Position numbers and translations under genes: made by a program. Positions 4,669-31,053 of a DNA stretch of 40,666 bases are shown here, piece by piece; within the stretch, counting starts at the first letter, position 1, and the number at the start of each line of letters is the position of its first letter. Source of the DNA: Oscillospiraceae bacterium (lineage in GTDB: Bacteria; Bacillota; Clostridia; Oscillospirales; Oscillospiraceae); NCBI GenBank assembly GCA_017506735.1, contig JAFVMW010000014.1, forward strand, positions 1-40,666, read 5' to 3'. The notes under the pieces are model-generated. The model was given only the letters and a program-made list of their open reading frames with translations. It searched no databases and was not told where the DNA came from.

Positions 4669-4697
4669 ATCATAGCGCACTGCCTGTTTTTTGTCAA
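4669..4697 (-). promoter_or_regulatory. Promoter of leader peptide-ABC exporter operon
   Basis: Perfect -35 TTGACA (4697-4692) and -10 TATGAT (4674-4669) with an exact 17-bp spacer on the minus strand. Confidence 0.85.
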
Positions 4698-4753
4698 GTG
4701 CTATTCCGCAACTTCATTTGTGCAGATTTACGGATTTTTCTTATGGTTTCAGA

Positions 4754-4782
4754 TTGATATTCTTCTTTCCATTCGCTATAAT
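4754..4782 (+). promoter_or_regulatory. Promoter of aldehyde oxidoreductase operon
   Basis: TTGATA (4754-4759), 17-bp spacer, perfect TATAAT (4777-4782), followed by AAAGGAGGG and the ATG at 4805. Confidence 0.85.
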
Positions 4783-4804
4783 AGGAGCAAAGGAGGGATA
4801 TGCT

Positions 4805-8169: not shown

Positions 8170-8183
8170 CATAACACAACGAA

Positions 8184-8230: not shown

Positions 8231-9769
8231 TCAGACGACCAGGAAGGTGCAGGTCATGGGGGCCAGCTCCACCTTGCCGGCAGCGACAGGATCGCCGGAC
8301 AGGTCAGGCAGCTCCCAGTTCTCGCCCAGAACCAGGTCACGGCCGTTCAGGGTCATAACGGTGGCGCGCTTGAAGCCGTCCTTGCCGTTCAGAACCCAGA
8401 TCAGACCGTCGTTGGGGATGTCAACGGTGGTGGTCTCGGTCTCGGAGTTGTTGATGATCAGGTAGCACTTCTTGGAGGGGTCAGCCTTGTAGGACTGGAC
8501 GTAAACGTGTGCGCCCTCACGGATGGGCTCGCCGGAGGCGTAAACCTGAGTGCCCATCAGATCAATCCACAGCTTGACTGCGAAGTAGTTGGGCCGGGGA
8601 TCATGGACGAAGCGTGCCAGGTAAGCGTAGTCAGAAGCGGTCAGGGTGTTGTGGAAGATGACACCGCGGGTCAGAGCGGAGAAGCCGCCCAGCTCGTTCA
8701 GTGTGCGGAGAACATCCAGATAGGTGGAAGCCCAGGTGTCGCCGCCGCCGCCGGCATCGCCGGACTCGGTGACCCACATCTCGGTGCCGGGAGCGTACTT
8801 GTCACGGTAGGGGATGTAGGTACGGCAGAACTTGGGAGCGGTGTCCAGGTACTCCTCGCCGTTGGCCTCGCTGGGATCCCAGTGGCCGGCAGGCATGACA
8901 GAAGCCAGACGGTCGGACAGACCGTTGTAGTAGTGGTAGGAGAAAACGTCCACGGGGACAGTCAGGCCTTCGAACAGCTCATCGCAGGTGGCGCTGTGAC
9001 GGGCCAGCTGCTCCACGCCGCCGGTGCCGGCGTCTTCCTTGCCCATACGGCCGAAGGAAACGGGAGCGCCGCCGGTGTCGGAGGTGCCGACGTACAGACA
9101 CTCGGGATAGTTCTCCTTCAGCCACTTGGCGAACAGGTCAGCATCCCGGTGGTAATGCTTGGCGGTGTAGCCCTCGGGGAAGCCGGTGTCTTCCAGCATA
9201 TTGGGCTCGTTGGCGAACTCAGCAGCCTCGATGGGCACGCCGTAGGCCTTGGAGAAGGAGAACAGCTTTTCAGCCTCGGTGGAGGGCCAGGGCTCCTCGG
9301 CGGAGTGCAGGCCGGGGCAGTTGGCAACGGAAACCTTCAGCTTCAGGTTGCAGTCACGGACAAAGTCCAGAACGCCGATCCACTGCTCCTTGGTCAGCTT
9401 GTTCAGATAGCCCTCGGGAACGGTGTTGCCGGGGTACTCGCCGTCGAAGTCATAGTAGGTCTTGGTGGCCCAGGTACCGGAAACACGGCACCAGGTGGTG
9501 CCCAGATCACGGGTCAGCTTGCGCAGCTTCTCATTGTACAGGTCAATGGGAGGATACACCTGCATCAGGTCACGGTACATGGCGGCGATGCCGTCAGCGG
9601 AGGGACGGACGACGAAGGGCTCGGTGCCGGCAATCTGCTCGGGGGTATAGGCCTTCCAGAAGGTGCCGCCGGTAACTTCGGCGAACTCCACGTTGTAGGC
9701 AACCAGATAGGGGTTCTGCTCATGCAGAGCCTTCAGCTCGGCAGGGTTCAGTTTGACAAATTCAGCCAT
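8231..9769 (-). CDS. GH79/heparanase-like clan GH-A glycoside hydrolase
   Basis: 512 residues, no signal peptide, so cytoplasmic. The clan GH-A acid/base is visible as FANEPNM (Glu188) and the nucleophile as WVTESGDAGGGG (Glu335). The stretch after the nucleophile, Gly-rich and then DTWASTYLDVLRTLNELGG, resembles the heparanase/GH79 arrangement; a small beta-sandwich forms the C-terminus (about 405-512). GH79 enzymes cleave glucuronides or heparan-type chains, but other GH-A families (GH39, GH30) have similar motifs. ATG 9769 has AAGGAG just upstream. It is a single-gene unit with its own promoter. Acting inside the cell, it should process short imported glycosides. Confidence 0.72.
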   Translation of the reverse strand: MAEFVKLNPAELKALHEQNPYLVAYNVEFAEVTGGTFWKAYTPEQIAGTEPFVVRPSADGIAAMYRDLMQVYPPIDLYNEKLRKLTRDLGTTWCRVSGTWATKTYYDFDGEYPGNTVPEGYLNKLTKEQWIGVLDFVRDCNLKLKVSVANCPGLHSAEEPWPSTEAEKLFSFSKAYGVPIEAAEFANEPNMLEDTGFPEGYTAKHYHRDADLFAKWLKENYPECLYVGTSDTGGAPVSFGRMGKEDAGTGGVEQLARHSATCDELFEGLTVPVDVFSYHYYNGLSDRLASVMPAGHWDPSEANGEEYLDTAPKFCRTYIPYRDKYAPGTEMWVTESGDAGGGGDTWASTYLDVLRTLNELGGFSALTRGVIFHNTLTASDYAYLARFVHDPRPNYFAVKLWIDLMGTQVYASGEPIREGAHVYVQSYKADPSKKCYLIINNSETETTTVDIPNDGLIWVLNGKDGFKRATVMTLNGRDLVLGENWELPDLSGDPVAAGKVELAPMTCTFLVV

Positions 9770-10057: not shown

Positions 10058-11008
10058 ATGTTTGAAGCAATTTATCGTCAGATTCTGGCCCATGACACCC
10101 TGATTCTTCACCGGCACAGCCGTCCCGACGGCGATGCTCTGGGCAGTCAGATCGGCCTTAAAGCGATTCTGAAAGAGAATTTCCCGGAAAAGACCGTTTA
10201 CGCCGTGGGCGACGACGCTGGCTTTTACGCCTTCATGGAGGACACGGTGATGGATGTGATCCCGGACAGCGCCTACGAAAACGCGCTGGCGGTGATTCTG
10301 GACTGCGGCGCTCCGGCACTGATCAGCGACGAACGCTGCCGCCTGGCAAAATCCACCGTCCGCATCGACCATCATATATACTCCGGCCCCATTGCCCAGA
10401 CCGAGGTCATCGATACGAGCTTTGAAAGCTGCTGCGGCATGGTGACACAGTTTGCCCTGGAATCCGGACTCCGGGTTCCCCGGCTCGCCGCCAAAAGCCT
10501 GTTCACCGGTATGGTCACAGACTCCGGACGGTTCCGCTACGACTGCACCACCCCCCGGACCCTCCGTTTGGCAGCGTTCCTGCTGGAGCAGGGCATCGAT
10601 CTGAACGAAGTGTACCGGGATCTGTACGCCGATGATTTTGAAAGCAAGCTCCGCAAGGCGGAGTTCACCCTGAAAACCCGGTTCACTGCCAATCGGGTGG
10701 CCTATATCTACACCACCCGGGAGGAGCTGGCGGCTCTGGTGGCCCAGGGCATCGGCACCTTTACCGTTTCCCGGGGCATGGTCAACACCATGGCCGACAT
10801 CAAGGGAACGGAGATCTGGGCCAACTTTACGGAAACCGACCGGGGGGTTCTCTGCGAAATCCGCTCCGCCGGTGTGAACATCAATCCCATCGCTGTGAAG
10901 TACGGCGGCGGCGGTCATGCCAAGGCCAGCGGCGCAACGGTTGCTGACCGGGAAACTGCCATGGCCATGCTCCGGGATCTGGACCAACTGACAGGAGAAA
11001 AACGATGA
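10058..11008 (+). CDS. nrnA: DHH/DHHA1 phosphoesterase, NrnA-type (nanoRNase/pAp phosphatase)
   Basis: 316-residue cytoplasmic DHH-family enzyme. NrnA proteins degrade 2-5-nt RNAs to mononucleotides and dephosphorylate pAp. The DHH domain has HRHSRPDGDALGS (His20, Asp24, Asp26), VILDCG (Asp82) and the name-giving DHH at 104-106; the C-terminal DHHA1 domain carries YGGGGHAKASGA. All metal ligands are present. The start at 10058 follows AGGAAAGAGG. First gene of a three-gene operon in which each start overlaps the preceding stop by 4 bp. Exact substrate (nanoRNA, pAp, cyclic dinucleotide-derived pApA) is not resolvable by eye. Confidence 0.85.
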   Translation: MFEAIYRQILAHDTLILHRHSRPDGDALGSQIGLKAILKENFPEKTVYAVGDDAGFYAFMEDTVMDVIPDSAYENALAVILDCGAPALISDERCRLAKSTVRIDHHIYSGPIAQTEVIDTSFESCCGMVTQFALESGLRVPRLAAKSLFTGMVTDSGRFRYDCTTPRTLRLAAFLLEQGIDLNEVYRDLYADDFESKLRKAEFTLKTRFTANRVAYIYTTREELAALVAQGIGTFTVSRGMVNTMADIKGTEIWANFTETDRGVLCEIRSAGVNINPIAVKYGGGGHAKASGATVADRETAMAMLRDLDQLTGEKR

Positions 11009-11991
11009 ATCAGGAAATCAAAGAACTTATTTTCAATAAAATCGAAGCCGCCCCCCGGATCATGCTGTTCCGCCATGTCCGCAATGACGGCGACTGCGTA
11101 GGGGCCACCAAGGGTCTGAAGCGAATCCTCCAGCTCACCTGGCCGGAAAAGGAAATCTACCTCATTGATCACGAAACCGCCAAATATCTGGAATTCATGG
11201 GCCCCGAGGACGAGGAAGTGGCCGATGAGATCTACGAAAGCGCCCTGGGCATCGTGCTTGACACCGCCTCCGAGGCCCGGATCTCCAACAAAAAATACAC
11301 CCTGTGCCGGGATCTGATCAAGATCGACCACCACATTCCCCTGGAAAACTACGGCAGCACCCAATGGGTGGAGGAGGAGCGCTCCTCCTGCTGCGAAATG
11401 ATCGTGGACTTCTACAGCACCTTCCGGGACAAGCTGAAGATCGACTCGGAAGCGGCGGGGTATCTGTACACCGGCATGGTCACGGACTCCGGCCGGTTCA
11501 AGTATTCCGGCGTTTCCGGTGACACCCTGCGCAACGCCGCCGTTCTGCTGGATGTGGGCGTGGACACCGACACCCTGTTCGCCCGGCTTTATCTGGAGGC
11601 CTTTGAATATCTGAAATTCAAGGCCCACATCTACAACCGGATGCAGGTGACCCCCAACGGCGTGGCCTACATCTTTGTGGACAAGGCCATGCAGGAGGAG
11701 TTCAATCTTTCTCTGGAGCAGGCCAGCGCCATCATTGGCAATCTGGACTCCATCCGGGGCTGCATCAGCTGGATCGCCTTTATTGAGTCCGGCGATGCCC
11801 TGGGCTCCATCCGGGTCAGACTTCGCTCCAGATTTGTCCACATCAACTCCATCGCCGAGCGCTACCACGGCGGCGGTCATGCCTGCGCCAGCGGTGCTAC
11901 CGTATACAGCAGGGAGGAAATGGAAGCCCTCCTTGCCGACACCGATGCCCTTGTAAAGCAGTACAAGGAGACCCACGAGGGATGGCTATGA
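11005..11991 (+). CDS. Second DHH/DHHA1 phosphoesterase, NrnA-like paralogue
   Basis: 328 residues, same architecture as the upstream gene but clearly diverged. Motif I is FRHVRNDGDCVGA (His24, Asp28, Asp30), motif II IVLD (Asp86), the DHH triad at 108-110 and the DHHA1 glycine loop YHGGGHACASGA near 290, all intact. A tandem pair of non-identical NrnA-like enzymes suggests different substrates, for example oligonucleotides and pAp. Translationally coupled to both neighbours (ATGA overlaps). Probably not a degenerate copy, since every catalytic residue is kept. Confidence 0.85.
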   Translation: MNQEIKELIFNKIEAAPRIMLFRHVRNDGDCVGATKGLKRILQLTWPEKEIYLIDHETAKYLEFMGPEDEEVADEIYESALGIVLDTASEARISNKKYTLCRDLIKIDHHIPLENYGSTQWVEEERSSCCEMIVDFYSTFRDKLKIDSEAAGYLYTGMVTDSGRFKYSGVSGDTLRNAAVLLDVGVDTDTLFARLYLEAFEYLKFKAHIYNRMQVTPNGVAYIFVDKAMQEEFNLSLEQASAIIGNLDSIRGCISWIAFIESGDALGSIRVRLRSRFVHINSIAERYHGGGHACASGATVYSREEMEALLADTDALVKQYKETHEGWL

Positions 11992-12716
11992 GAATTCTGA
12001 TCGTAAACGACGATGGCGTGAATACAGCCCAGCTGCCCAATCTGATCCGCTGGTGCCGGAAGCTGGGCGAAGTGACTGCCGTTGCTCCCAAGTTTGAGCA
12101 GAGCGGCAAAAGCCACGGCATTGAGCTGCACCGGCCCATCGAGGCAAAGCAGGTGGCCCTTGCCCCGGATGTGACAGCCTGGGCCCTGGATTCCACTCCG
12201 GCCGACTGCGTCCGGTTCGGCGTTCTTGCCCTGAATCAGACCTATGATCTGGTGATCTCCGGCGTGAACAAGGGTCTGAATGTGGGTGTGGATATGATGT
12301 ACTCCGGCACCGTAGGGGCAGCCTGCGAGGCGGTGAACCTGGGGCTGAAGGCCATCGCCCTTTCCACCACTCCGGGGAACTATCCCAACGCCACCCGGGA
12401 GCTGGACCGGATCTTCGACTTCATCCGGGAGAATCACCTGCTGGAACGGCACAATCTGTACAACATCAACATTCCCACCGGGGAGCCCCAGGGCATCCGA
12501 TTTACCCGTATGGGCGGCCCCTACTACTCTGACCGGTTCGTCCCCATTGGCAGCGACCTGTACAATCCCGAGGGCTACACCATCTGGCGTGACAGCGGCG
12601 ACGACAATCTGGATACCGACGCCACACTCCGGGGAAAGTACATCACCATCACCCCTCTGACCGTGAACCGGACAGATAATGCCGTTTTTGAGGAACTGAC
12701 TAAAATGAATCCATAA
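11988..12716 (+). CDS. surE: 5'/3'-nucleotidase SurE
   Basis: 242-residue SurE acid phosphatase: metal-dependent removal of phosphate from nucleoside 5'- and 3'-monophosphates, and in some homologues short polyphosphate. MRILIVNDDG at the start gives the metal ligands Asp8 and Asp9, and GVNKGLNVGVDMMYSGTVG (about 87-105) is the second signature. The ATG at 11988 is preferred over 11982, since SurE normally begins MRIL and GAGGG is at usable spacing. The 4-bp overlap with the DHH gene couples their translation. In this operon it would complete oligonucleotide to mononucleotide to nucleoside conversion. Confidence 0.9.
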   Translation: MRILIVNDDGVNTAQLPNLIRWCRKLGEVTAVAPKFEQSGKSHGIELHRPIEAKQVALAPDVTAWALDSTPADCVRFGVLALNQTYDLVISGVNKGLNVGVDMMYSGTVGAACEAVNLGLKAIALSTTPGNYPNATRELDRIFDFIRENHLLERHNLYNINIPTGEPQGIRFTRMGGPYYSDRFVPIGSDLYNPEGYTIWRDSGDDNLDTDATLRGKYITITPLTVNRTDNAVFEELTKMNP

Positions 12717-12720
12717 AAAA

Positions 12721-12746
12721 TGACCGCACCCTTTCGGGTGCGGTCA
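12721..12746. terminator. Terminator of the nuclease-ABC operon, shared with surE
   Basis: 11-bp perfect stem TGACCGCACCC/GGGTGCGGTCA. On the minus strand it is followed by six T, so it is a strong terminator for the six-gene operon; the plus side lacks a T run and is weaker. Confidence 0.85.
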
Positions 12747-12764
12747 CATTACTTATGTAGGGAA

Positions 12765-14114
12765 TCAGCCAACCAGAGTGCAGCCCTGGTCGAACTCGAT
12801 GGTACCCTTGTAGTTCTTCAGGATACCGGTGACGGTGATGGTCTGACCCTCGGCAAGATCCTTGGCGCCCTCGCCGGACAGACGGTAGCACATGATGGGG
12901 TAGTTCTCCAGACCGGCAACCACGATGGTGACGGTGATGTTCTGGTAGTCCTCGCTCCAGGGAGTGTCCACAGCGACGATGGTGCCGGTGATGGTCTTGG
13001 CGGCCTCCTGAGCCTCGCCGTCCTGCAGCTTGTAGCCGGACAGAGCGTTCTTCACGGAGTGATATGCATCGTTGGGAACCAGGACGCAGCCTGCGTCGAA
13101 CTCAACCAGGCCCTTGTAGTTCTTGATGACACCGGCCACGGTGATGGTGTCGCCGACAGCGATGTCCTTGGCACCCTCGCCCTTCAGGCGGTAGCACTGG
13201 AACACCTTGCCGTCAAACTCCATGTTGACAGTGATGTTGCCGTACTCATCGGACCATGCGGTGGGGATCTCGGTGACAACGCCGGTCAGGACAGCGGGAT
13301 AGTCCATGGAAGCGCCCTCGCCCAGATCGTAGGCAGCCTTCAGCAGAGCCTTCTGATCCACGAACTCACCATAGCCGATAAGCACGCAGCCTGCGTCGAA
13401 CTCATAGGTGCCCTTGTAGTTCTTCAGAATACCCTCGACGGTGATCTGGTCGCCGACCTTCAGATCCTTGGCGCCCTCGCCCTTCAGACGGTAGCACTGG
13501 ATGGGCTGCTCTTCCTTGCCGGCAACGGTGATGGTGACGGTGATGTTCTGGTAGTCCTCGCTCCACTCGGTGTCGATGGAAGCCACGGTGCCGAACAGAC
13601 GGAAGGCATCCTCGGTGGACTGCTGATCCTCCAGGGCGTAGGCCATGTCAACGATCTCGGCGTAGGTCAGGCCGTCCACGTTCATGGCGGCAGGCAGGAT
13701 GTGGTTCCAGGACAGGGATTCGGTGTTGGTGCCGTCGGTCAGAGTAGCGGTCAGGACATAGGCAGTCTCAGCGGAAGCGTTCTCGTTGACATCCACAGTA
13801 ACCATGCCGTTCTCGTTGGGAACGATGGCAACCAGATCCTCAGCAACGTCAACTGTCCAGGTGATCTCGTACTTCTCCGCGCCCATGGGGACGACAGCGA
13901 TGACATCATAATCCTTGGCGGTGACTTCGGCGGCGTTCTTGTAGATGGTCTTGACATAGGCCACAGCGTCAGCCAGGCCGGAAACAGGTGCGGTGGTCTC
14001 CACGGGAGCCTCGGTGGTGGGAGGCACGGTGGTTTCGGGAGTTTCATTGGAGCAGCCTGCGAACATGGCAACGCACATTGCCAGCAGCAGTGCCCAGGCA
14101 GTAATCTTCTTCAT
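12765..14114 (-). CDS. Lipoprotein with Ig-like domain and three OB-fold repeats
   Basis: 449 residues. Signal peptide with lipobox FAGC (Cys21), then a Thr/Pro-rich linker (22-45), a beta-rich Ig-like domain (about 46-140), and three tandem repeats of about 75 residues at 172-246, 274-346 and 374-449. Each repeat runs from WSEDYQNITV-like text through a CYRLKGEGAKDL core to KNYKG.xEFD.GC, the pattern of extracytoplasmic OB-folds in bacterial nucleases such as YhcR. It has no visible catalytic site, so it is probably a surface binding protein. ATG has AAAGGAG and lies 13 nt after the SNase lipoprotein gene; last gene of the operon. Binding of nucleic acid is inference; OB-folds can also bind sugars or proteins. 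Confidence 0.75.
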   Translation of the reverse strand: MKKITAWALLLAMCVAMFAGCSNETPETTVPPTTEAPVETTAPVSGLADAVAYVKTIYKNAAEVTAKDYDVIAVVPMGAEKYEITWTVDVAEDLVAIVPNENGMVTVDVNENASAETAYVLTATLTDGTNTESLSWNHILPAAMNVDGLTYAEIVDMAYALEDQQSTEDAFRLFGTVASIDTEWSEDYQNITVTITVAGKEEQPIQCYRLKGEGAKDLKVGDQITVEGILKNYKGTYEFDAGCVLIGYGEFVDQKALLKAAYDLGEGASMDYPAVLTGVVTEIPTAWSDEYGNITVNMEFDGKVFQCYRLKGEGAKDIAVGDTITVAGVIKNYKGLVEFDAGCVLVPNDAYHSVKNALSGYKLQDGEAQEAAKTITGTIVAVDTPWSEDYQNITVTIVVAGLENYPIMCYRLSGEGAKDLAEGQTITVTGILKNYKGTIEFDQGCTLVG

Positions 14115-14127
14115 GGTTAGCTCCTTT

Positions 14128-15486
14128 TTACTTGATTGTAATGTTTTTCGCGGTAAAGACCTTGATCTGATAGTCCCCGTCGAAGAAATCGACGATGCCC
14201 TTCACATCAATGGTTTTGCCCAGATAGGCATCCGCGGTGATTCGGGTTCCGTTTTCATCCAGCAGCACAGCGGTGCGGACCGTGACGGTCACATCGCCGG
14301 AGCGGCAGAGCAGGGTCATGGCTCCGTTGGAGGAGGAATCCGGATTGTCGGTGGTATACACATCCACCACTTCCAGGTTTTCCATGGAAACGGTGGTACC
14401 CAGGGAAAGCGCTGCCCAGGAGGCAGTCAGCTCCCCTTCCCCGTTGGGCACAGTGACCTGGGACACAAACTCCCGGGCAGAAACCGGGGTGTATGCCGGG
14501 GCGTGGCCCTCGGAGATCTTCTGGATGTTGCCCGGGTCCTTGGGCTGCATCATCCGGTAGGTCAGATCGGAGACCTGCCAGGTGCCGCCGCCCTCGTAGA
14601 ACTGGACAGAGCCCACGATCCGGACTTCATTGCCCACGGTCAGCACATCCAGACCGGCGCCGGACAGGCCGTGGCCGTAGTAGATGTAGATGCCGTAGTA
14701 CATTCCGGTTTCCGGATCAAAGTCTTCCACATACACGCCCTGGGTGCCGCTGTTGGAGGTGATCACGCCATTGAAAGCCACTTTCATACCGCTGTAGCTT
14801 TCGATGTTGGTCCGCAGCTCCCGCAGGGTCAGCTCCACGGCGTCGCCGTAGTAGAAGTCCGGGTCGGGCTTCCCGGAATAAAGGTTCAGTTTCTCCCGCT
14901 TGGCCTGGTCGATGGCGGCCATACAGGTGCTGCCGTACTGATTGCCGGCGGCGCCGTTGGCGATGGCAAGGCCGTTTTGCAGGATCTCCACATTCAGGTT
15001 CCGGTATTCTTCCGTTTCTGCGGTCTTATACCAGACCCAGACCAGATACCGGTCGCCGGTGGAGTCGGGGTCCCAGGAGTCTGTCTCCGACTCGATGAGG
15101 ATGGAGGTGGCAGCACTGAGCTTTTCCCGGGTGAAATTGGAGGCGGCTTTGCCGTACTCCTCAATCTTGCCGGTGGATTCCGGGGTGTTCACCGCCAGGA
15201 ATCTTGCCTTCAGCACGCCGCCGGGCATCACATCCTCGGGGACATGGAAGTGGACGGTATCGCCGTCAATGAAGGTCTTGACAGTGACCTCCTGTTTGAC
15301 GGTGCCGTTGTTTCGCACCAGTCTTAAAAGACCGGCGTGATCCACAGATTCCTGGAGGACAGGCTCTGTGGGGGCGGAGGTGGGTACTGTGGTCTCCGCC
15401 GGGGGCACTGTGGGCGCAGAGGTCCCACAGGCCGTCAGCAGAAAAATCACAGTCAGAAGTGTAAGCAGTTTCCGGAAACTATCCAT
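14128..15486 (-). CDS. Surface lipoprotein nuclease: SNase domain plus two OB-folds
   Basis: 452 residues. Lipobox LTAC (Cys20), Thr/Pro linker, then a staphylococcal-nuclease domain (about 66-208). Landmarks: FIDGDT (Asp74 and Asp76 matching Ca ligands Asp19/21), RFLAVNTPES with catalytic Arg95 and Glu103, DRYLVWVW with catalytic Arg146, and LNVEILQNGLAIANG. Only the Asp40 position is changed, to Asn100. Two OB-like domains follow (about 232-313 and 364-450). The enzyme should be anchored outside the membrane and cut DNA and RNA. ATG 15486 is preferred to GTG 15513, which overlaps the binding-protein gene, because it starts the signal peptide. Mycoplasma MG186/MPN133 are SNase-like lipoproteins next to a Ugp-like transporter, the same association. 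Confidence 0.85.
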   Translation of the reverse strand: MDSFRKLLTLLTVIFLLTACGTSAPTVPPAETTVPTSAPTEPVLQESVDHAGLLRLVRNNGTVKQEVTVKTFIDGDTVHFHVPEDVMPGGVLKARFLAVNTPESTGKIEEYGKAASNFTREKLSAATSILIESETDSWDPDSTGDRYLVWVWYKTAETEEYRNLNVEILQNGLAIANGAAGNQYGSTCMAAIDQAKREKLNLYSGKPDPDFYYGDAVELTLRELRTNIESYSGMKVAFNGVITSNSGTQGVYVEDFDPETGMYYGIYIYYGHGLSGAGLDVLTVGNEVRIVGSVQFYEGGGTWQVSDLTYRMMQPKDPGNIQKISEGHAPAYTPVSAREFVSQVTVPNGEGELTASWAALSLGTTVSMENLEVVDVYTTDNPDSSSNGAMTLLCRSGDVTVTVRTAVLLDENGTRITADAYLGKTIDVKGIVDFFDGDYQIKVFTAKNITIK

Positions 15487-15494
15487 GAAACGGA

Positions 15495-16949
15495 TCAGCT
15501 TGCGTACTCGCACTCAGCCACAGCGTCCTCGAATGCCTCAGCGATCTGGGCATCGATGTTGTCGCCGGTGAGAGCCAGACACTTGGTCATCAGAGCGCCG
15601 ACCTGGTCACGGGCCTCAGAGGAGCCGTTGAAGGCAGGAGAGGTGTAGTATGCGTGCTCCTGCTCCAGGCAGATCTTGGCGGACAGAGCGGAAATGTAGT
15701 TGCCGCCGTCAGCGTTGGCGATGAACTCAGCGTAAACAGGGTTCTCAGCAACGGACTTGATGACGGGAACGTAGCCGGAAGCCATACCGAACTCAGCCTG
15801 GAAGTTGACGTTGGTGGTCAGGAACTTAACGAACAGCCAGGAAGCCACGACCTCCTGGGGGTTGGCCTTCTGGAAGATGCAGAGGCTGGGGCCCTGGGAG
15901 ATGACCTTGGCGTTGTTGGCGTCAACCTGGGGAATGGTGGAGATGCCCACCTCGAAGGGGTAGGAGCCGTCAGCATTGGCAGCAGGACGCTGGTAGGTGG
16001 CACCTGCGGAGGAGCCGATGGACATATAGGAGCGGACACCCTCCAGAGTGGTGAACAGGCCGGAGGTGTAGGCGCCGTACAGGGTCTGGGTGGTCAGATA
16101 GCCCTTCTGGTACCACTCGTTAAACTTCTTGACGAAAGCGTGGTTCTGCTCATTGTCGAACAGGAAGTGGTCGCCCTCAGCGCTGGTGTAGGGGGAGCCG
16201 TACTGCTCGCACATGGTGATGAACCAGTTGGACTCGGAGTCATAGCCCAGGGGGATGGAGTTGGGATCGATGGCCTTGATCTGAGCGCAGACAGCCTCCA
16301 GCTCGTCCCAGGTGGTGGGAACGGTCAGACCGTTGGCATCGAAGAAGGTCTTGTTGTAGTACAGAACCTCGGTGGACTTGGAAAGGGGCATGGTGTACAT
16401 CAGACCGTCACCGAACTCCCGGCCTTCGTTGTAGTAGCCCTCGATGAAATCAGCGACCTGCTCGTCGGTCAGGCCCAGGACCTCGGTGGTGCCGTCGGCA
16501 CGGGTGATCTCAACGTCGGACTCGATCAGGCTGTCCAGAGTGGTGACAGCCTTGGCCAGGTTGTACAGAGCAACGTGGTCGGGGTAGCAGTAAGCGATGT
16601 TGGGCTGGTTGCCAACGGTGATCTCGGTGGAGATCTGGTCGCGGCAGTCATCGTAGTTGCCCACGTTGGTGGACACCACGGTGATGTTGGGATAGAGCTT
16701 GTTGAACTCAGCGATATAGGTCTCCAGAACGGCGGCCAGATTTGCGCCCATGGTGTTGTAGAACACGATGGTCACTTCGCTGCCGTCGTAGCCACCCTCG
16801 GGAACGGTGAAGTTGCCCACGGGCTTGACGGTTTCACCGCCCTGCTGGGGAACAGAGGGAGCGGTGGTTTCGGGGGTTTCGCCGCCGCAGGCTGCCAGCA
16901 TGGTCATCAGCATGGCAACCAGAAGCAGTGTTGCTACGATTCTTTTCAT
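15495..16949 (-). CDS. ABC transporter extracellular solute-binding lipoprotein (family 1, UgpB-like)
   Basis: 484 residues: signal peptide with lipobox LAAC (Cys about 21), short linker, then a family 1 solute-binding fold with the usual opening EVTIVFYNTMGAN and later ISQGPSLCIFQKANP. Such proteins deliver sugars or glycerophosphoryl compounds to CUT1 transporters. Start 16949 is set by AAAGGAAA and the MKRIVATLLL signal peptide; the longer ORF runs back into the permease gene. It is followed after 8 nt by the SNase lipoprotein gene. The bound ligand is unknown; the neighbours suggest nucleotides or oligonucleotides, the family suggests sugars. Confidence 0.85.
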   Translation of the reverse strand: MKRIVATLLLVAMLMTMLAACGGETPETTAPSVPQQGGETVKPVGNFTVPEGGYDGSEVTIVFYNTMGANLAAVLETYIAEFNKLYPNITVVSTNVGNYDDCRDQISTEITVGNQPNIAYCYPDHVALYNLAKAVTTLDSLIESDVEITRADGTTEVLGLTDEQVADFIEGYYNEGREFGDGLMYTMPLSKSTEVLYYNKTFFDANGLTVPTTWDELEAVCAQIKAIDPNSIPLGYDSESNWFITMCEQYGSPYTSAEGDHFLFDNEQNHAFVKKFNEWYQKGYLTTQTLYGAYTSGLFTTLEGVRSYMSIGSSAGATYQRPAANADGSYPFEVGISTIPQVDANNAKVISQGPSLCIFQKANPQEVVASWLFVKFLTTNVNFQAEFGMASGYVPVIKSVAENPVYAEFIANADGGNYISALSAKICLEQEHAYYTSPAFNGSSEARDQVGALMTKCLALTGDNIDAQIAEAFEDAVAECEYAS

Positions 16950-16990
16950 TGTGATTTTTCCTTTCTTTCTGATTGGTTGATCTATTAAAG

Positions 16991-17005
16991 GACGGTTTTT
17001 CCGTC
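16991..17005. other. Intercistronic hairpin before the binding-protein gene
   Basis: GACGG/CCGTC with a 5-nt loop, just after the second permease stop and before the binding-protein gene. Small stems here often shield the mRNA so that the binding protein is made in excess. No T run, so not a terminator. Confidence 0.4.
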
Positions 17006-17007
17006 GA

Positions 17008-17895
17008 TTAACCCTTGATGCCGCTGCGGCTGACACCTGCCATGATATACTTGCGCAGGAATACGAAAACCAGGAACAGCGGAGCGGATACGATGGCAAC
17101 GGCCGCCATCTGGACGGGGTAGTTCACATCACCGGTGGTTTCGGTGAAGGCATTGCGCAGACCGTTGGTGATCATCCGGTGGGCTTCGTCGTTGGCCACC
17201 AGCCGGGGCCAGATATAGGAGTTCCACGCGCCCATCATCTTCAGAATGGTGATGGAGATCAGAGTGGGCAGGCTCAGAGGAACCATAACCTTCCACAGAT
17301 ATTTCAGATCAGAGGTGCCGTCCACCTTGGCGGCCAGATACAGCTCATTGGGGATCTGCATGAAGTTCTGGCGGAGCAGGTAGATATAGAACACACTGAC
17401 CAGGAAGGGAACGATCAGAACGGTGTAGGTGTTCATCCAGCCGAAGCTGGTGACGGTGGCGTAGTTGGTGATGGTGAACAGCTCGCCGGGGATCATCATG
17501 GTGGCAAGGAGCGCGCCGAACATGGCATCCCGGCCCTTGAACTCAAGCCTTGCAAAGGCGAAGGCAGACAGCACGGTGATCACCAGGCTCAGCAGGGTGG
17601 AAACCACACCCACGATCATGGTGTTGTAGAACAGTCTGCCCAGGGACGCGGTGGTGAATGCGTCGGCGTAGTTGGACAGCAGAATCTTTCTGGGCCAGAA
17701 GGTGGGCACGTTCAGGCGGTACTCTTCCAGAGATTTCAGGGAGGAAATGACCATCCAGTAGAAGGGGAACAGCACCACGGCTGCCATCAGAATCAGAAAT
17801 GCATAGGTAAAGCATTTCACACAGCCCCGGATGATACGGGAACGGGCGGAAACGATCTGCATATTCTGCTCCTGCATGATTTTGCGTTCAGACAT
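17008..17895 (-). CDS. ABC importer permease, CUT1 family (UgpE/MalG-like)
   Basis: 295 residues, six predicted membrane helices, first at about 25-48. The cytoplasmic EAA loop contacting the ATPase is visible as LAAKVDGTSDLKYLWKVMVP (about 195-215). The ATG at 17895 is used rather than GTG 17904 because GGGAGGTGG sits about 6 nt upstream. Third gene of the operon, 15 nt after the other permease. MalG-type permeases pair with a MalF-type partner, here the adjacent upstream gene. Confidence 0.88.
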   Translation of the reverse strand: MSERKIMQEQNMQIVSARSRIIRGCVKCFTYAFLILMAAVVLFPFYWMVISSLKSLEEYRLNVPTFWPRKILLSNYADAFTTASLGRLFYNTMIVGVVSTLLSLVITVLSAFAFARLEFKGRDAMFGALLATMMIPGELFTITNYATVTSFGWMNTYTVLIVPFLVSVFYIYLLRQNFMQIPNELYLAAKVDGTSDLKYLWKVMVPLSLPTLISITILKMMGAWNSYIWPRLVANDEAHRMITNGLRNAFTETTGDVNYPVQMAAVAIVSAPLFLVFVFLRKYIMAGVSRSGIKG

Positions 17896-17910
17896 TATTT
17901 CCACCTCCCA

Positions 17911-18855
17911 TCAGTAATGGACACGCTTCTTGCTGACCTGATTGTTGATCAGGGTGACCACAAGAATGATGCCGAAGAGGATCAGCGCGGCGGCCGAGGC
18001 TCTACCCTGGCTGTTGGTTTCCAGAGCGTCGTAGATGAAGCCCACCATGGTATTCAGACGGCCTGCGTCATCCGGGGGGCCCATGTTTTCGCCGAAGATA
18101 CCCACGATGCTGGTGTACTCCTTGAAGCCGCCGATGAAGCCGGTGATGATGACATAGGCCAGCATGGGAGAAAGCAGGGGCACGGTGATGTGGGTGAATA
18201 CCCGGCGGCGGGGGGTGCCGTCCACCTTGGCAGCGTCGTAATACTGCTTGTTGATGCTCTGCAGGCCGCCCAGCAGCACCAGAATCTTGAAGGGCAGAGC
18301 GTTCCAGACGATATAGACCACCATGACGAACATGTTGGCCTCATAGCTGGAGCCGTAATTGATCCAGTTGATATGCTTGCCGCCGAAGAAGCCGATGATA
18401 TTGTTGATGATACCTGCGGTGACGATCAGCTCATTCTCGGTGCCGTAGAAGGAACCGACGATGTTGAACATGGCGGCGAACACCATGCCGATGGCGATGG
18501 AGTTGGTCACATAGGGCAGGAAAAAGATGGTCTGCAGACCCTTCTGCAGGAATTTGATGGAATTCAGAGCCACCGCGACGAGCAGGGCCAGAAGGGTGGA
18601 GATGGGCACGGTAAGCACGCAGAGCAGGCAGGTGTTCTTCAGACACTGGACAAAGCGCTTGTACTGCACGACCTTGACAAAGTTGCCGAAGCCCAGCTCA
18701 AACTGCATTCCCGCGGCAGCCTTCAGGCCGCTGTAGTTCTCCAGTAATGCCATGCGGACGGTGTTGAAAATGGGCCAGACTGTAAAAATGAGCAGCAGCA
18801 CGATGGCAGGCGCCAGATACAGCCAGGCTTTCCATTGCTGTTTGCTGTCAACCAT
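17911..18855 (-). CDS. ABC importer permease, CUT1 family (UgpA/MalF-like)
   Basis: 314 residues, six membrane helices beginning at about 12. EAA loop YDAAKVDGTPRRRVFTHITV followed by PLLSP lies in the C-terminal third. ATG follows the ATPase stop by a single base, with GAGGTGA inside the end of the ATPase gene, so the two are co-translated. Forms the membrane channel with the next permease. Ligand unknown; sequence class is that of sugar and glycerol-3-phosphate importers. Confidence 0.88.
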   Translation of the reverse strand: MVDSKQQWKAWLYLAPAIVLLLIFTVWPIFNTVRMALLENYSGLKAAAGMQFELGFGNFVKVVQYKRFVQCLKNTCLLCVLTVPISTLLALLVAVALNSIKFLQKGLQTIFFLPYVTNSIAIGMVFAAMFNIVGSFYGTENELIVTAGIINNIIGFFGGKHINWINYGSSYEANMFVMVVYIVWNALPFKILVLLGGLQSINKQYYDAAKVDGTPRRRVFTHITVPLLSPMLAYVIITGFIGGFKEYTSIVGIFGENMGPPDDAGRLNTMVGFIYDALETNSQGRASAAALILFGIILVVTLINNQVSKKRVHY

Positions 18856-18856
18856 A

Positions 18857-19960
18857 TTACTTCACCTCAAAACGGATGCGCTCCTCGGTGTCCTTGTGGA
18901 ACAGGAAGAACTTGTGGGGCTTGATGCTGTAGCGAACCGTTCCGGAAGTCACATCCACTCTGTTGTCGGCGTTGATGATGGAACGGATGACGGGATTCAG
19001 GGAAGCAGGGTTGGTGGAGACGATGCTCACATCCCGGCCCATAACCTCCACGTTGGACAGCTTGCAGCTCAGGGGGCCGTTTTCATCCAGCACGAAGCCC
19101 TCGGGACGGATGCCGATGTAGACGGGCTGATCCGCCACGCCGGCCACTTCCAGCACGGCTTCCTGGCCGATATAGACCTTGCCGCCCCGGACGGTACCCT
19201 CCAGCACGTTGATGGGAGGGGTGCCCAGGAACTTGGCGACGAAGAGGTTGGCAGGATCGTCATAGACCTGCTGGGGCTGACCGATCTGCTGGACCACACC
19301 CAGCTTCATAACAACGATCAGGTCGGAGATGGACATGGCCTCTTCCTGGTCATGGGTGACGAACACGGTGGTGATGCCGGTTTCCTTCTGGATGCGGCGG
19401 ATCTCCTCACGGGTCTGCAATCTCAGACGGGCATCCAGATTGGACAGGGGCTCGTCCAGCAGCAGAACCCGGGGCATCTTCACCAGGGCCCGGGCGATGG
19501 CCACACGCTGCTGCTGACCGCCGGAAAGCTCGCTGGGCTTGCGCTCCATCAGCTCGTCGATCTGCACCAAGCGGGCGGCTTCCAGGGCACGCTTGTCCAT
19601 TTCTTCCTTGGACAGCTTGTCCGCGCCCTTCAGATTCTGCAGAGGGAACAGGATGTTCTGCTTCACAGTCATGTGGGGATACAGCGCGTAATTCTGGAAC
19701 ACCAGGCCAATGCCCCGGTTCTCGGTGGATACTTCCGTCACATCGTCCTCACCGAAGAAGATCTTGCCGGAGGTGGGCTTCTGCAGGCCGCTGATCATGT
19801 ACAGCGTGGTGCTCTTGCCGCAGCCGGAGGGGCCCAGAAGGCCGATGAGCTTGCCGTCAGGGATTTCAAAGGTGAAGTCGTTGACGGCGACTACCTCTTT
19901 CCCTGCCTTTTTGTCACGGCTGGGGAAGATTTTTGTCAGGTTTTGCAGGACTACTTTCAT
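18857..19960 (-). CDS. ABC importer ATPase, MalK/UgpC type
   Basis: 367 residues. Walker A GPSGCGKST (43-51), Q-loop Gln89, signature LSGGQ (145-149), Walker B with Asp169-Glu170, switch His203, then a C-terminal TOBE regulatory domain (about 235-367). All catalytic residues are present. First gene of the six-gene operon; ATG 19960 has GGAAGGG upstream. An operon led by its ATPase and followed by UgpA, UgpE and lipoprotein genes matches the Mycoplasma MG187-MG189 type cluster that neighbours an SNase lipoprotein. MalK-type ATPases can serve several CUT1 transporters, so it may be shared. Confidence 0.9.
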   Translation of the reverse strand: MKVVLQNLTKIFPSRDKKAGKEVVAVNDFTFEIPDGKLIGLLGPSGCGKSTTLYMISGLQKPTSGKIFFGEDDVTEVSTENRGIGLVFQNYALYPHMTVKQNILFPLQNLKGADKLSKEEMDKRALEAARLVQIDELMERKPSELSGGQQQRVAIARALVKMPRVLLLDEPLSNLDARLRLQTREEIRRIQKETGITTVFVTHDQEEAMSISDLIVVMKLGVVQQIGQPQQVYDDPANLFVAKFLGTPPINVLEGTVRGGKVYIGQEAVLEVAGVADQPVYIGIRPEGFVLDENGPLSCKLSNVEVMGRDVSIVSTNPASLNPVIRSIINADNRVDVTSGTVRYSIKPHKFFLFHKDTEERIRFEVK

Positions 19961-20011: not shown

Positions 20012-20030
20012 CAAAGGTTGACATTTTTAG

Positions 20031-20094
20031 GGAAGCTCTGATTCAATCGGCAAAAGATCCGTCAGCTGCCGCAGACGATTGATTCAGAGGTTCC
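20031..20094. mobile_element. 64-bp MITE-like element with TTAG target duplication
   Basis: Terminal inverted repeats of 19 bp (20031-20049 and 20076-20094) match at 17 positions, beginning GGAAGCTCTGATTCAATCG and GGAACCTCTGAATCAATCG. A 5-bp inner stem CGGCA/TGCCG (20048-20052, 20067-20071) continues the hairpin. The element is bounded exactly by TTAG on both sides (20027-20030 and 20095-20098), a 4-bp direct repeat fitting the YTAR target of IS5-group transposases. The right TTAG supplies the TAA stop of the RDD gene. No transposase is present in the window. Confidence 0.65.
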
Positions 20095-20856
20095 TTAGTA
20101 CTGTGCCCGTTGGGCACGGTCCGCCGCGAGCCGTTTCTGATACTCGATCAGATCCTCAGTGGTGCGGAAGATGGTCTGGCTGGCCATGTCCACCACGGCG
20201 GTGCCTGCCAGCAGGTCATGGATGGCGGCGCTGTTCCGGGTGAACAGCAGACAGGCGGTCTGGCCCAGGGCCAGCACCAGCAGGATCACCGATCCGGTCA
20301 TGCCCAGGGAGCCCCAGAACATCAGCAGGAACACATACACAGGAATCATGGTTTCCAGGGTGTATTTGCCCAGAATGGTACGGGTGAACAGCTGCATATT
20401 GTTCACCTTCACGCCGTCATTGCGCACCAGGCACATGCCGAAGATTTTTTTGCCCAGGGTCTGGCCGTTGCCCAGCCACAGGGGGATGAAAAACTCCCAG
20501 AGCAGCATCGCCGCCAGAATGCCCAGGGAAATGATCACCAGGGTCAGGCTCAGCATCATGTTATAAGCATACAGGGCTTCTTCATCCGCGATAAACGCGT
20601 CATAGGCATCATCATAGGCCTTCTGTTTTTCTTCCGGCATGGACTGATAGGTTTCATAGCTGATGTCCAGGGCAACACCGTACTGCTGCTCATACCGGGC
20701 CTGGGTCTGATCCAGGGTATCGCTGTAGCCGTCGTAGCCCAGCAGCCCCGACAGCAGAAAGCAGGCTCCGGCTGCCACAACACTCATCAGGATCAGGTCA
20801 AAAAGCCAGGCGGCAGCCCGTTTCCAGGGGCCGGCTTTTTGCAGGTCATGTATCAT
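20095..20856 (-). CDS. RDD-family membrane protein
   Basis: 253 residues. RDD proteins are small integral membrane proteins of mostly unknown function, some linked to ion transport. The first helix contains KRAAAWLFDLILMS, and GNGQTLGKKIFGMCLVRNDG is the second conserved RDD block; four hydrophobic segments are visible. A soluble loop of about 50 charged and Tyr-rich residues follows the first helix. ATG 20856 is preferred to 20862 or 20883 because GGAG is 8 nt upstream of it. The stop codon lies within the target duplication of the MITE-like element, so the C-terminus may have been altered by that insertion. Confidence 0.8.
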   Translation of the reverse strand: MIHDLQKAGPWKRAAAWLFDLILMSVVAAGACFLLSGLLGYDGYSDTLDQTQARYEQQYGVALDISYETYQSMPEEKQKAYDDAYDAFIADEEALYAYNMMLSLTLVIISLGILAAMLLWEFFIPLWLGNGQTLGKKIFGMCLVRNDGVKVNNMQLFTRTILGKYTLETMIPVYVFLLMFWGSLGMTGSVILLVLALGQTACLLFTRNSAAIHDLLAGTAVVDMASQTIFRTTEDLIEYQKRLAADRAQRAQY

Positions 20857-21008
20857 TCTCATCGCTCCAAACTGACATAGCATTAGAAATCATCTTATTT
20901 TACCACACTCCTTTTCTTTTTTCCACCCGGATTTGAAAAAAAATGAAATTTCTTTTGCATTTCCTAATGCAGGAAAGAGGAGCTGCCGCATTTGCAACAG
21001 CCCCTTGT

Positions 21009-22802
21009 TCATCGCCCGGACTGGGCGTCAATCTGTTCTTTCAGGTCGTTGAGATAGATCCAGCGTTCTGTCTTATGCTCCAGCTCCGCTTCCAGGGCTT
21101 CCAGCTCGGTCTGAAGCTCCTGCAGCCGGACATAATCGCTTCCGGCGGCGGACTGGGCAGCACGGTTTTCTTCGATTTTATTCTCCAGTGCGGCGATGTC
21201 ATCATCGATGGTGGCGTATTCCCGTTCTTCCTTGAAGGAGAATTTCAGTTTTTTCTCCTTCTGCCGGGGTTCCTGGCTGACCCTGGGCTTGACCGGACGG
21301 GCAGGCTGTTCCTCCTCCCGGCGTTTGGCATCATAGTCGCTCCAGTTGCCGGTGTAGACCTCCACCCTGCCGTCGCCCCGGACCTCCAGGATCTGGGTGG
21401 CCATCTTGTCCAGGAAGAACCGGTCGTGGGAAACCGTGACGATGGGGCCGGGGAAATCCTGGAGATAGTCCTCCAGAATGGACAGGGTCATCACATCCAG
21501 GTCGTTGGTGGGCTCGTCCAGCAGCAGCACATTGGGGGAGCTCATCAGCACCGACAGCAGGTACAGCCGCCGCCGTTCACCGCCGGAGAGCCGCCCGATG
21601 GGGACACTTTGCAGATCCGCCGGGAACAGGAACCGCTCCATCATCTGCTTGGCGGAGAAGGTGCCCTCAGCGGTTTTCACCTCCCGGGCGATCTCGTGGA
21701 TGAAATCATAGACCCTCTGACCCAGATCCAGCTCCCTGCCCTCCTGGGAGAAATGGCCGATCTTTACAGTGGTGCCCTGCTCGGCTTCGCCGGTATCGGG
21801 CATCAGCTCGCCGGCAAGCATATGCAGCAGGGTGGATTTTCCAGCGCCGTTGTGGCCTACGATGCCGATCCGGTCCTCCCGGAGCAGGCCCAGGGAAAAG
21901 TCCCGGATCACAGGTCTGCCGTCAAAGGACTTGCTGACGCTGCGCAATTCGATGATCTTCCGGCCCAGGCGGCTGGACGCGGCGGTGATCTGAACGTTGT
22001 CATCGTATTCCGGAGCGTCCCGGTTCAGAAGGGTTTCGTAGCGTTGAATCCGCTCCTTGGATTTGGTGGTGCGGGCCTTGCAGCCCCGCATGATCCATTC
22101 CCGTTCCACCCGGAGGATGGACTGGCGCTTGCGCTCGCTGGCCTCGGCCATCTCCTCCCGGAGGGCTTTCAGCTCCAGATACTTGGAGTAATTGGCTTCA
22201 AAATGGTACAGCTTTCCCCGGGACAATTCCGTGATGTGGTTCACCACCCGTTCCAGGAAATACCGGTCATGGGTCACCATCACCAGACCGCCCCGGAAGG
22301 CGCGGAGCCAGTCCTCCAGCCAGGCCACCATCCGGCTGTCCAGATGGTTGGTGGGCTCGTCCAGGATCAGCACATCCGCAGGCCGCACCAGGGCCGCCAC
22401 AAGCGCAACACGCTTGCGCTGACCGCCGGAGAGGGTGCCGATTTTCCGGGAGAAATCCGTAAAGCCCAGCCTGGTCAGCATGGACTTGGCTTCATACTCG
22501 TTCAGCTCCCGAAATTCCCGGGGGAAATGGAGGAATACCTGCTCCAGAATGGTGGCATCGTCCTCCATCTCCGGGTTCTGGGACAGAACGCTGATCTGGA
22601 TGTTGGGATTCCGGGTGATTTTGCCCCCGTCTGGCTCCACCAGACCGGACAGCACCTTCAGAAAGGTGGATTTTCCCGTTCCGTTGATGCCGATGACGCC
22701 GACCTTGTCCCCTTCCTTCAGGTAAAAATTCACGTCGGACAGCAGCTGACGGCTTCCGAAATTGATGGAGAGTTTCTCCGCGGACAGTAACATTTCGCTC
22801 AC
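21009..22802 (-). CDS. ABC-F ATPase, Uup-like
   Basis: 597 residues, two ABC domains and no membrane helices, the ABC-F class that acts on ribosomes (translation factors or antibiotic target protection). Domain 1 has GINGTGKST and LSGGQRKRVAL with LILDEPTNHLD; domain 2 has GHNGAGKST and LSGGERRRLYL with LLLDEPTNDLD. The tail from about 530 is a charged coiled coil with heptad Leu/Glu, typical of Uup. GTG 22802 or ATG 22793 are both possible starts. Single-gene unit, divergent from a TipAS-type MerR regulator. Resistance versus housekeeping cannot be decided. Confidence 0.87.
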   Translation of the reverse strand: MSEMLLSAEKLSINFGSRQLLSDVNFYLKEGDKVGVIGINGTGKSTFLKVLSGLVEPDGGKITRNPNIQISVLSQNPEMEDDATILEQVFLHFPREFRELNEYEAKSMLTRLGFTDFSRKIGTLSGGQRKRVALVAALVRPADVLILDEPTNHLDSRMVAWLEDWLRAFRGGLVMVTHDRYFLERVVNHITELSRGKLYHFEANYSKYLELKALREEMAEASERKRQSILRVEREWIMRGCKARTTKSKERIQRYETLLNRDAPEYDDNVQITAASSRLGRKIIELRSVSKSFDGRPVIRDFSLGLLREDRIGIVGHNGAGKSTLLHMLAGELMPDTGEAEQGTTVKIGHFSQEGRELDLGQRVYDFIHEIAREVKTAEGTFSAKQMMERFLFPADLQSVPIGRLSGGERRRLYLLSVLMSSPNVLLLDEPTNDLDVMTLSILEDYLQDFPGPIVTVSHDRFFLDKMATQILEVRGDGRVEVYTGNWSDYDAKRREEEQPARPVKPRVSQEPRQKEKKLKFSFKEEREYATIDDDIAALENKIEENRAAQSAAGSDYVRLQELQTELEALEAELEHKTERWIYLNDLKEQIDAQSGR

Positions 22803-24811: not shown

Positions 24812-24829
24812 ATTCTATCCCTCCATAAT

Positions 24830-29467: not shown

Positions 29468-29495
29468 TCCGGGATGTCTTTTGGGACATCCCGGA
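29468..29495. terminator. Bidirectional terminator
   Basis: 11-bp perfect stem TCCGGGATGTC/GACATCCCGGA with a 6-nt loop, between the convergent rraA-like and GPH transporter genes. Confidence 0.85.
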
Positions 29496-29500
29496 TTATT

Positions 29501-30898: not shown

Positions 30899-30950
30899 TG
30901 TAAAAACCTCCCAAATACCATTCCGGCAGCCCATCACACAAGGATTTTCA

Positions 30951-30979
30951 TTGACGGAACCCTCTGCTGCCGTTATAAT
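30951..30979 (+). promoter_or_regulatory. Promoter of the GH2 glycosidase gene
   Basis: TTGACG (30951-30956), 17-bp spacer, perfect TATAAT (30974-30979). The leader is about 70 nt. No clear minus-strand promoter for the divergent symporter was seen. Confidence 0.78.
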
Positions 30980-31053
30980 GGCTACTGAAACAGTTTGCTC
31001 CAAAAATACACTTTTTATGCAGCACTTTTTTACTTGATCGGAGGCTCTGAACT

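Follow-up and report, generated by a model that had tools for sequence, protein, structure and literature searches.

A Clostridial gene cassette coupling a surface nuclease to a CUT1-type importer and NrnA-like enzymes, and its probable role in nucleic-acid scavenging

The closest described systems are known from Mycoplasma and Izemoplasmatales. The Mycoplasma operon MAG_5030 (P80)–MAG_5040 (staphylococcal nuclease, SNase)–MAG_5050 to MAG_5070 had overlapping transcripts, and nucleic-acid cutting plus import was proposed for it (PMC3585158); similar operons were named for other species: Mhp379, MHO_0730, and Mpn133 (PMC9740415). The M. bovis DHH proteins Mbov_0328 and Mbov_0327 degraded nanoRNA as recombinant products, and their knock-out in cell culture was rescued by nucleoside monophosphates or nucleosides (PMC7373297). 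The DNA-degradation loci of Izemoplasmatales clustered extracellular nucleases, ATP-binding cassette (ABC) transporters, and phosphohydrolases, and the H. nucleasis locus contained an extracellular RNase, NrnA, and ABC transporters, with many genes upregulated in the presence of DNA plus RNA (PMC8289736, PMC8397711, and PMC10470597). Here, we describe a gene cassette in the 40,666-nt contig JAFVMW010000014.1 (the window, i.e., the whole stretch analyzed) of Oscillospiraceae bacterium GCA_017506735.1 (2.31 Mb, 117 contigs, and 81% complete); it displayed the minus-strand order RDD–ATPase–permease–permease–substrate-binding lipoprotein (SBP)–SNase lipoprotein–OB lipoprotein and converged on a plus-strand operon NrnA1–NrnA2–SurE.

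Judged from its genes and their conservation, this cassette probably serves nucleic-acid scavenging with import of the cleavage products. A model of outside cutting, import, and breakdown had been offered for the locus from its letters alone (the sequence-only reading), and it is supported here by the linkage of nuclease and OB genes in all further genomes with the SBP, by the co-occurrence of NrnA2 with the cassette, and by a phosphate site kept in the SBP without the full glycerol site.

The cassette and the Mycoplasma SNase–ABC operon shared an SBP lipoprotein, a SNase, an ATPase, and two permeases in adjacent positions, together with the same proposed job, but the Clostridial cassette was ATPase-first and added RDD, OB-repeat lipoproteins, further nucleases, and NrnA–NrnA–SurE; a PurL-like gene in the source genome (271 bits, below the 525.75 cut-off) was a further difference from Mycoplasma. 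Compared by description only, the Izemoplasmatales loci had phosphate transporters and a lamin-tail protein besides several nucleases, while the Clostridial cassette was a compact ordered operon. The sequence-only reading had suggested a new substrate use for this importer class in Clostridia; the use would be new for Clostridia only, the same idea having already been published for Mycoplasma (PMC3585158). No description of the Clostridial cassette was found among the open-access literature matches listed; new are the strict Clostridial operon in gut bacteria, the NrnA pair and its link, the accretion of other nucleases, the phosphate-site SBP, and the dinucleotide reading, while the Mycoplasma and Izemoplasmatales ideas are known.

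Conservation and layout of the cassette

The locus search based on the SNase was biased toward the nuclease, and hence a separate search was made with the SBP alone (E ≤ 1e-60) in overlapping samples of 394 genomes (order), 391 genomes (class), and 60 genomes (37 of the genus, including the source genome). The SBP was found in 18/394 order genomes and 4/391 class genomes, the source genome being counted in both, and in 30 genomes besides the source genome (17 of the order, 3 of the class, and 10 from the 60-genome sample). A SNase gene directly after an SBP gene was present in all 30 (20/20 from the order and class samples and 10/10 from the 60-genome sample), an OB-type lipoprotein also stood in the operon in 30/30 (weak in locus L079), and the SBPs of lowest identity (43% in L076 and 39% in L079) still had the SNase downstream. 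The sequence-only reading had raised the possibility that relatives of the operon usually lack the nuclease and OB genes, and this was found not to be the case.

With the SNase lipoprotein as query, the contig scan returned 33 loci, all of which had the SBP gene directly upstream of the SNase gene, and over all tallied loci the SNase gene followed the SBP gene of the importer operon in 63/63. With this order found again in tens of loci, the gene set is not a product of chance. Contigs of equal length with identical genes were assumed to be the same (L068 = L015, L075 = L031, and L154 = L014), L003 looked like a part of L007, and each was counted within its own set only. An RDD gene preceded the ATPase gene in 26/33 SNase-found loci (the remaining 7 contigs do not extend that far upstream) and in 16/20 SBP-found loci (2 cut off and 2 without it); at L076 and L079, the loci with the most distant SBPs, no RDD at 70 bits was found in approximately 5 kb upstream. 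The SBP was duplicated within the cassette in one locus (L158:3270–8966, genome G892), where the first copy was followed by the OB lipoprotein and the second copy by the SNase. The record titles of 20 of the 33 SNase-found loci named a ruminant or deer gut sample, and the SNase protein was patchy within the family (4/150 genomes at E ≤ 0.001, the source genome and one weak partial match included).

Surface nucleases could alternatively act in defence or competition (against foreign DNA, biofilm, or host traps), nutrient import being secondary, and Mycoplasma surface nucleases have also been linked to neutrophil trap degradation (PMC9740415); with the SNase gene behind an importer-operon SBP gene in every tallied locus, and with NrnA2 co-occurring with the cassette (see below), such a role is very unlikely as the main one.

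The window matched the sequence-only reading in its six-gene importer/SNase/OB operon converging on the NrnA–NrnA–SurE operon: all nine genes were open frames in place, and Pfam matches above curated cut-offs were obtained for DHH plus DHHA1 twice, SurE, SNase, SBP_bac_8, BPD_transp_1 twice, and ABC_tran (Table 1). The count of six fell short in one respect, since the RDD gene also belongs to the cassette. The UgpC/MalK-type ATPase, two BPD permeases, and an SBP_bac_1/8 protein, all in one operon, constituted a CUT1-type ABC importer, and UgpC/A/E were the closest named NCBIfam models for the ATPase and permeases. The promoter scan gave no excess over the chance level (4 vs. 4.7). Between the RDD and ATPase genes (window 20029–20095), an imperfect inverted repeat of approximately 20 bases was seen by eye; it may be a terminator or a mobile repeat, and the ATPase gene would thus perhaps have its own promoter.

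Table 1. Features of the cassette and of the convergent operon in the window
Feature	Position	Strand	Evidence
RDD-family membrane protein, first cassette gene	20095..20883	-	PF06271, 50.4 bits
UgpC/MalK-type ATPase of the importer	18857..19960	-	PF00005; best NCBIfam UgpC, 343 bits, below 432 cut-off
UgpA-type permease	17911..18855	-	PF00528
UgpE-type permease	17008..17904	-	PF00528
Substrate-binding lipoprotein (SBP), phosphodiester-type, proposed di/oligonucleotide binder	15495..16949	-	PF13416; 7C0F series, E 2.9e-23
SNase lipoprotein with OB-fold C-terminal part	14128..15513, probable start 15486	-	PF00565, 40.9 bits (cut-off 21)
Lipoprotein with three OB-fold repeats	12765..14114	-	PF01336, 33.5 bits (cut-off 27), plus three repeat units
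Bidirectional terminator-like hairpin between the convergent operons	12720..12747	.	Hairpin shared by both operons
NrnA1, DHH/DHHA1 phosphoesterase	10058..11008	+	PF01368 and PF02272
NrnA2, DHH/DHHA1 phosphoesterase, subfamily tied to the cassette	11005..11991	+	PF01368 and PF02272
SurE 5'/3'-nucleotidase	11982..12716	+	PF01975, 162 bits; TIGR00087, 157 vs. 135.1 cut-off

Elsewhere, the window contained two adjacent ABC_membrane plus ABC_tran proteins (852–4480, minus strand), an aldehyde ferredoxin oxidoreductase (4691–6709, plus strand), and a TelA plus PF10112 pair (23705–25993, minus strand), and the long candidate open reading frames (ORFs) 20943–22787 (plus), 6985–8172 (minus), 8234–9769 (minus), and 29474–30985 (plus) had no Pfam match at E ≤ 0.001.

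The binding lipoprotein and its ligand site

Ten distinct chains of the 7C0F–7C19 series were the closest solved relatives of the SBP (best 85 bits), with UgpB next (49 bits), and a profile of 28 SBP orthologues also placed the 7C0F series first (84.6 vs. 62.4 bits for the next protein). The source genome has 11 other SBP_bac_8 matches; two of them served as controls and had maltose-binding protein and 4G68, not 7C0F, as the first-ranked relatives. The entries 7C0F–7C1B are what we take to be the Thermus thermophilus binding protein for the dinucleotide U3G. U3G is reportedly uridylyl-3'-5'-phosphoguanosine, and its binding protein from Thermus thermophilus is said to be the subject of Chandravanshi et al. 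2021. Among the open-access literature matches listed, the Thermus protein (cited in PMC12718374) was the only characterized binding protein with an oligonucleotide-type ligand; a "putative oligonucleotide transporter" in a Listeria mutant list and "oligonucleotide transporters" in a metaproteome discussion were mentioned in the excerpts without detail.

The phosphate is held by two Tyr and two Ser that are common to UgpB and to the glycerophosphocholine- and U3G-binding proteins and are absent in glucose-binding ones; in Phaeobacter numbering, these UgpB residues are Tyr64, Ser143, Ser266, and Tyr342, and glycerol is held by Glu88, Arg393, Gly303, and two Trp (clamp Trp188/Trp191) (PMC12718374). 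The corresponding SBP residues were located by MAFFT alignment and tallied in 60 sequences: (i) the phosphate set was kept, with Y99 in 55/60 (W in 5), S192 in 60/60, S313 in 60/60, S314 in 51/60 (T in 9), and Y393 in 60/60; (ii) Glu88 aligned with P123 (58/60) and Arg393 with F440 (60/60), the residues for the glycerol hydroxyls thus being absent; (iii) Trp188/Trp191 aligned with S240/F243, W242 lay one column off, and the first clamp Trp was not kept; (iv) Gly303 was kept as G353 (60/60); and (v) K191 and Q352 were invariant and matched 7C0F, not UgpB. The SBP thus shared the fold family and phosphate site with UgpB of E. coli and Phaeobacter but not its glycerol Glu/Arg and first clamp Trp; it shared the aligned phosphate Tyr/Ser, Lys, and Gln-Gly positions with the 7C0F series protein, its best solved relative, but was distant from it and differed in some lining residues. 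Sites where the deposited chains differ from 7C0F were taken as mutated ligand residues and used as pocket positions (at least 4, from 5 of the 10 chains); they mapped to D124, L298, S313 (Thr to Ser, hydroxyl kept), and 319 (Tyr in the window and His in many orthologues).

The identification of the SBP as UgpB was rejected on the replacement of the glycerol Glu and Arg. A true Ugp system for glycerophosphodiesters, in which the nuclease linkage would reflect phosphate starvation, could draw on the UgpC/A/E models of the ATPase and permeases and on the phosphate set common to the SBP and UgpB, but it is highly unlikely with Pro and Phe at the glycerol-hydroxyl positions and without the first clamp Trp. 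An SBP that binds sugar, the nuclease merely sharing the operon for phosphate release or for clearing DNA from glycan, is quite unlikely: the phosphate set of two Tyr and two Ser is absent in glucose-binding proteins (PMC12718374), the nuclease accompanied the SBP in 30/30 further genomes, and the 25 of 50 families listed for accessory proteins (see below) included nuclease domains and no glycosidase, although CUT1 importers are usually sugar importers and the best NCBIfam match of the SBP was a carbohydrate model, far below its cut-off (60 vs. 299 bits). The SBP also had a weak match to the NCBIfam P68 model (E 2.2e-4).

A second SBP of the source genome (L151:8045–9445, G000:C15) displayed KST, GST, and GYLP motifs like the phosphate set, and the 551-aa ORF behind it appears to carry a membrane segment at its N terminus; this SBP was rejected as a paralogue of the cassette SBP (only 23% identity, best PDB relative 4G68).

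Surface nucleases and the NrnA–NrnA–SurE operon

The SNase lipoprotein was the only PF00565 match found in the source assembly, and Pfam saw the SNase domain only. The profile comparison (hhalign) gave 89% for the first OB domain (pairwise E 2e-6), 52% for the second, and 0.6% for the SNase domain itself against the OB profile as a control; of the SNase–OB–OB architecture named in the sequence-only reading, the SNase and first OB domains therefore stood, while the second OB domain was weakly supported. The triple-OB lipoprotein of the same reading was confirmed by three repeats of approximately 80 residues together with PF01336 above its cut-off. The likely start of the SNase gene is the ATG at 15486; a start at the GTG at 15513 would give an overlap with the SBP gene. 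The lipobox Cys was kept as C21 in 58/60 SBPs and C29 in 61/61 SNase proteins, and that of the OB lipoprotein was read from the window translation. The SNase residues D85, R104, T110, E112, and R155 were present in 61/61; the first four are the equivalents of the S. aureus catalytic D21, R35, T41, and E43.

The slot after the SNase gene was variable among loci. Its proteins were scanned with Pfam (56 proteins, the one of the window included, E ≤ 0.001), giving at least 22 with PF01336, at least 2 with Endonuclease_1, at least 1 with Endonuclea_NS_2, and at least 4 with Ribonuclease PF00545; 25 of the 50 families were listed in this accessory scan, so accessory domains may have been missed, and PF00545 was below its cut-off in both proteins shown singly. 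In a homology search over the ORFs of 75 loci, further nuclease-domain proteins were distributed as follows: (i) barnase-like proteins in eight (L016, L019, L032, L036, L064, L066, L067, and L069); (ii) Endonuclease I in four, as a fusion with the OB lipoprotein in L009, beside SurE but on the opposite strand in L073, and upstream of the operon at both L077 and L079; and (iii) NS_2 in L015 and L068, which are treated as a single contig. The window itself contained none of these three types. The eight barnase-like sequences had in common an N-terminal Cys, one invariant Glu, the stretch TRGAARIVY, and the His in NHYNDF. All 8 of their PDB matches at E ≤ 1 carried the name barnase or ribonuclease; the best of these (E 0.27) aligned in two colinear segments, the barnase-like name being suggestive only. 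Other accessory or neighbouring proteins, namely, a FAD protein (L072), a GDSL protein (L024), and an RNase J-like protein (L021), were not nucleic-acid enzymes or were of cytosolic types.

The DHH motif and GGGH histidine were kept in 30/30 NrnA1 and 33/33 NrnA2 sequences, and the two proteins scored 232 and 218 bits against the 350-bit cut-off of the NCBIfam NrnA equivalog; they are classed as NrnA-like, and we infer nanoRNase activity for them. B. subtilis NrnA prefers RNA of 2 to 4 nt, which it attacks at the 5' end (PMC9757072); PMC5593865 describes action from both ends.

The NrnA2 subfamily followed the SBP across genomes: (i) in the order sample (E ≤ 1e-50), it was present in 18/18 genomes with the SBP vs. 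3/376 others (Fisher 2e-28), and (ii) in the genus (E ≤ 1e-40), it was present in 11/12 genomes with the SBP vs. 0/25 others (Fisher 1.4e-8), P values that ignore relatedness and were obtained at thresholds chosen by the analyst, with weaker DHH candidates in most genomes listed. The genus exception with the SBP and without NrnA2 was G892, a 68% complete genome, and the 23 genomes outside the genus in the 60-genome sample had neither. The order searches for the SBP and NrnA2 were taken to cover the same 394 genomes from their equal numbers and matching handles.

The full NrnA–NrnA–SurE trio stood beside the cassette in 13/33 SNase-found loci (2 more partial) and 9/20 SBP-found loci (1 more partial), and chance adjacency of the two operons was rejected on these counts. 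Among the order genomes, the operons were adjacent in the window and in 10 others, and they were clearly apart in G466, where the 6.9 kb beyond the OB gene contained no trio and another contig carried it. In the genus sample, they were apart in G895 (same contig, trio approximately 9 kb upstream of RDD), G902, G900, G910, and G916; the trio was codirectional and approximately 2.8 kb upstream of the cassette in G911, and in G901, where the contig with the trio (L117) has an OB-type gene opposite SurE at its end, the operons are probably neighbours separated by a contig break. Since the operons were clearly apart in six genomes (G466 and the five of the genus sample), the link between cassette and NrnA is not one of adjacency alone, and an explanation of the co-occurrence by mere co-transfer of neighbours was weakened. 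The proposal that the NrnA/SurE operon belongs with the cassette is thus upheld by the phyletic pattern, also where the two are not next door.

This linkage bears on a reading in which the importer would take mononucleotides or nucleosides released outside and NrnA would serve only general RNA turnover, boosted by the nucleic-acid diet. In M. bovis, nucleoside transport was reported for the Ugp/glycerol-type permease MBOVPG45_0748 (PMC12838404), nucleotide precursors are what the Mycoplasma model names (PMC3585158), and the phosphate residues of the SBP would fit a mononucleotide too. Such uptake is nevertheless rather unlikely: the domains listed for the scanned surface proteins included no 5'-nucleotidase (25 of 50 families in the accessory listing), the NrnA2 linkage appears tighter than turnover would need, and the source genome already has two matches of Bmp type (a nucleoside-importer family), which makes a cassette substrate other than free nucleosides plausible.

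Proposed function and its meaning

Nucleic-acid scavenging by the cassette would proceed in four steps: (i) the lipid-anchored SNase would cut DNA and RNA at the cell surface, helped in some genomes by Endonuclease I, NS_2-type, or barnase-like proteins; (ii) the OB-fold repeats would keep the polymer near the cell; (iii) the SBP would bind short cleavage products, most likely di- or short oligonucleotides, via its phosphodiester site, and the CUT1-type ABC importer would take them in; and (iv) the two NrnA enzymes would cut them to mononucleotides, from which SurE would remove the phosphate. This scheme is probably the best explanation of the locus; cutting, capture, import, and breakdown are drawn from family membership and linkage, and the operon and co-occurrence from the sequences themselves. 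The odds that the ligand is a di- or oligonucleotide rather than a mononucleotide or nucleoside are about even.

SNase end-products are 3'-phosphorylated mono- and dinucleotides, and SurE accepts 3'- and 5'-nucleotides; this product type and substrate range fit the import of dinucleotides with NrnA and SurE acting next. A dedicated import of dinucleotides or nano-oligonucleotides in Clostridia is a tentative proposal, in which a CUT1-class SBP would recognize the phosphodiester of the SNase end-product and feed the paired nanoRNase-like enzymes plus SurE, one NrnA perhaps acting on ribo- and the other on deoxyribo-dinucleotides. Beyond the sequence-only reading, the analysis thus adds a ligand that is perhaps a di- or short oligonucleotide, the additional nuclease-domain proteins, and RDD as a cassette member.

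Several observations weigh against this reading. As to the SBP, a sugar-type control SBP also matched 7C0F (48.6 bits), the SBP is related to 7C0F only distantly and has a different pocket (Asn to D124 and Tyr to L298), and the literature search found no paper tying 7C0F–7C1B to the U3G-binding protein. As to the surface proteins, the site of N109, which we take to correspond to the Ca ligand D40 of the S. aureus enzyme, was Asn in 52/61 and Asp in 9/61, so that the metal use or preference of the SNase may be altered; the R87 equivalent was ambiguous, the invariant R155 being aligned by HMMER three residues before R87; and capture of nucleic acid by the OB folds, a weaker point, is suggested by family and linkage. 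As to the link with NrnA, G230, G425, and G472 had NrnA2 without a cassette-family SBP, and another importer may serve NrnA2 there; the NrnA2 counts cover the order and genus samples only; and among the trio-less loci (18 SNase-found and 10 SBP-found), 7/33 and 3/20 had at least approximately 3 kb beyond the OB gene without the trio, the rest having less sequence or being cut off. Seven order genomes had the SBP and NrnA2 on different contigs; in six of them (G435, G456, G445, G334, G306, and G465), the cassette contig ended at the OB gene or within 2 kb after it, so that the two operons may still be adjacent there. The phyletic counts are not independent of phylogeny, and the genomes are largely drafts.

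The uptake of dinucleotides or short oligonucleotides for nutrition has hardly been described, and the fate of nuclease end-products too large for nucleoside importers becomes a question for binding assays. If nucleic-acid scavenging is the true function, some "sugar" importers of gut Clostridia would be relabelled as nucleic-acid scavengers, and the published Mycoplasma operons would be linked to a wider theme.

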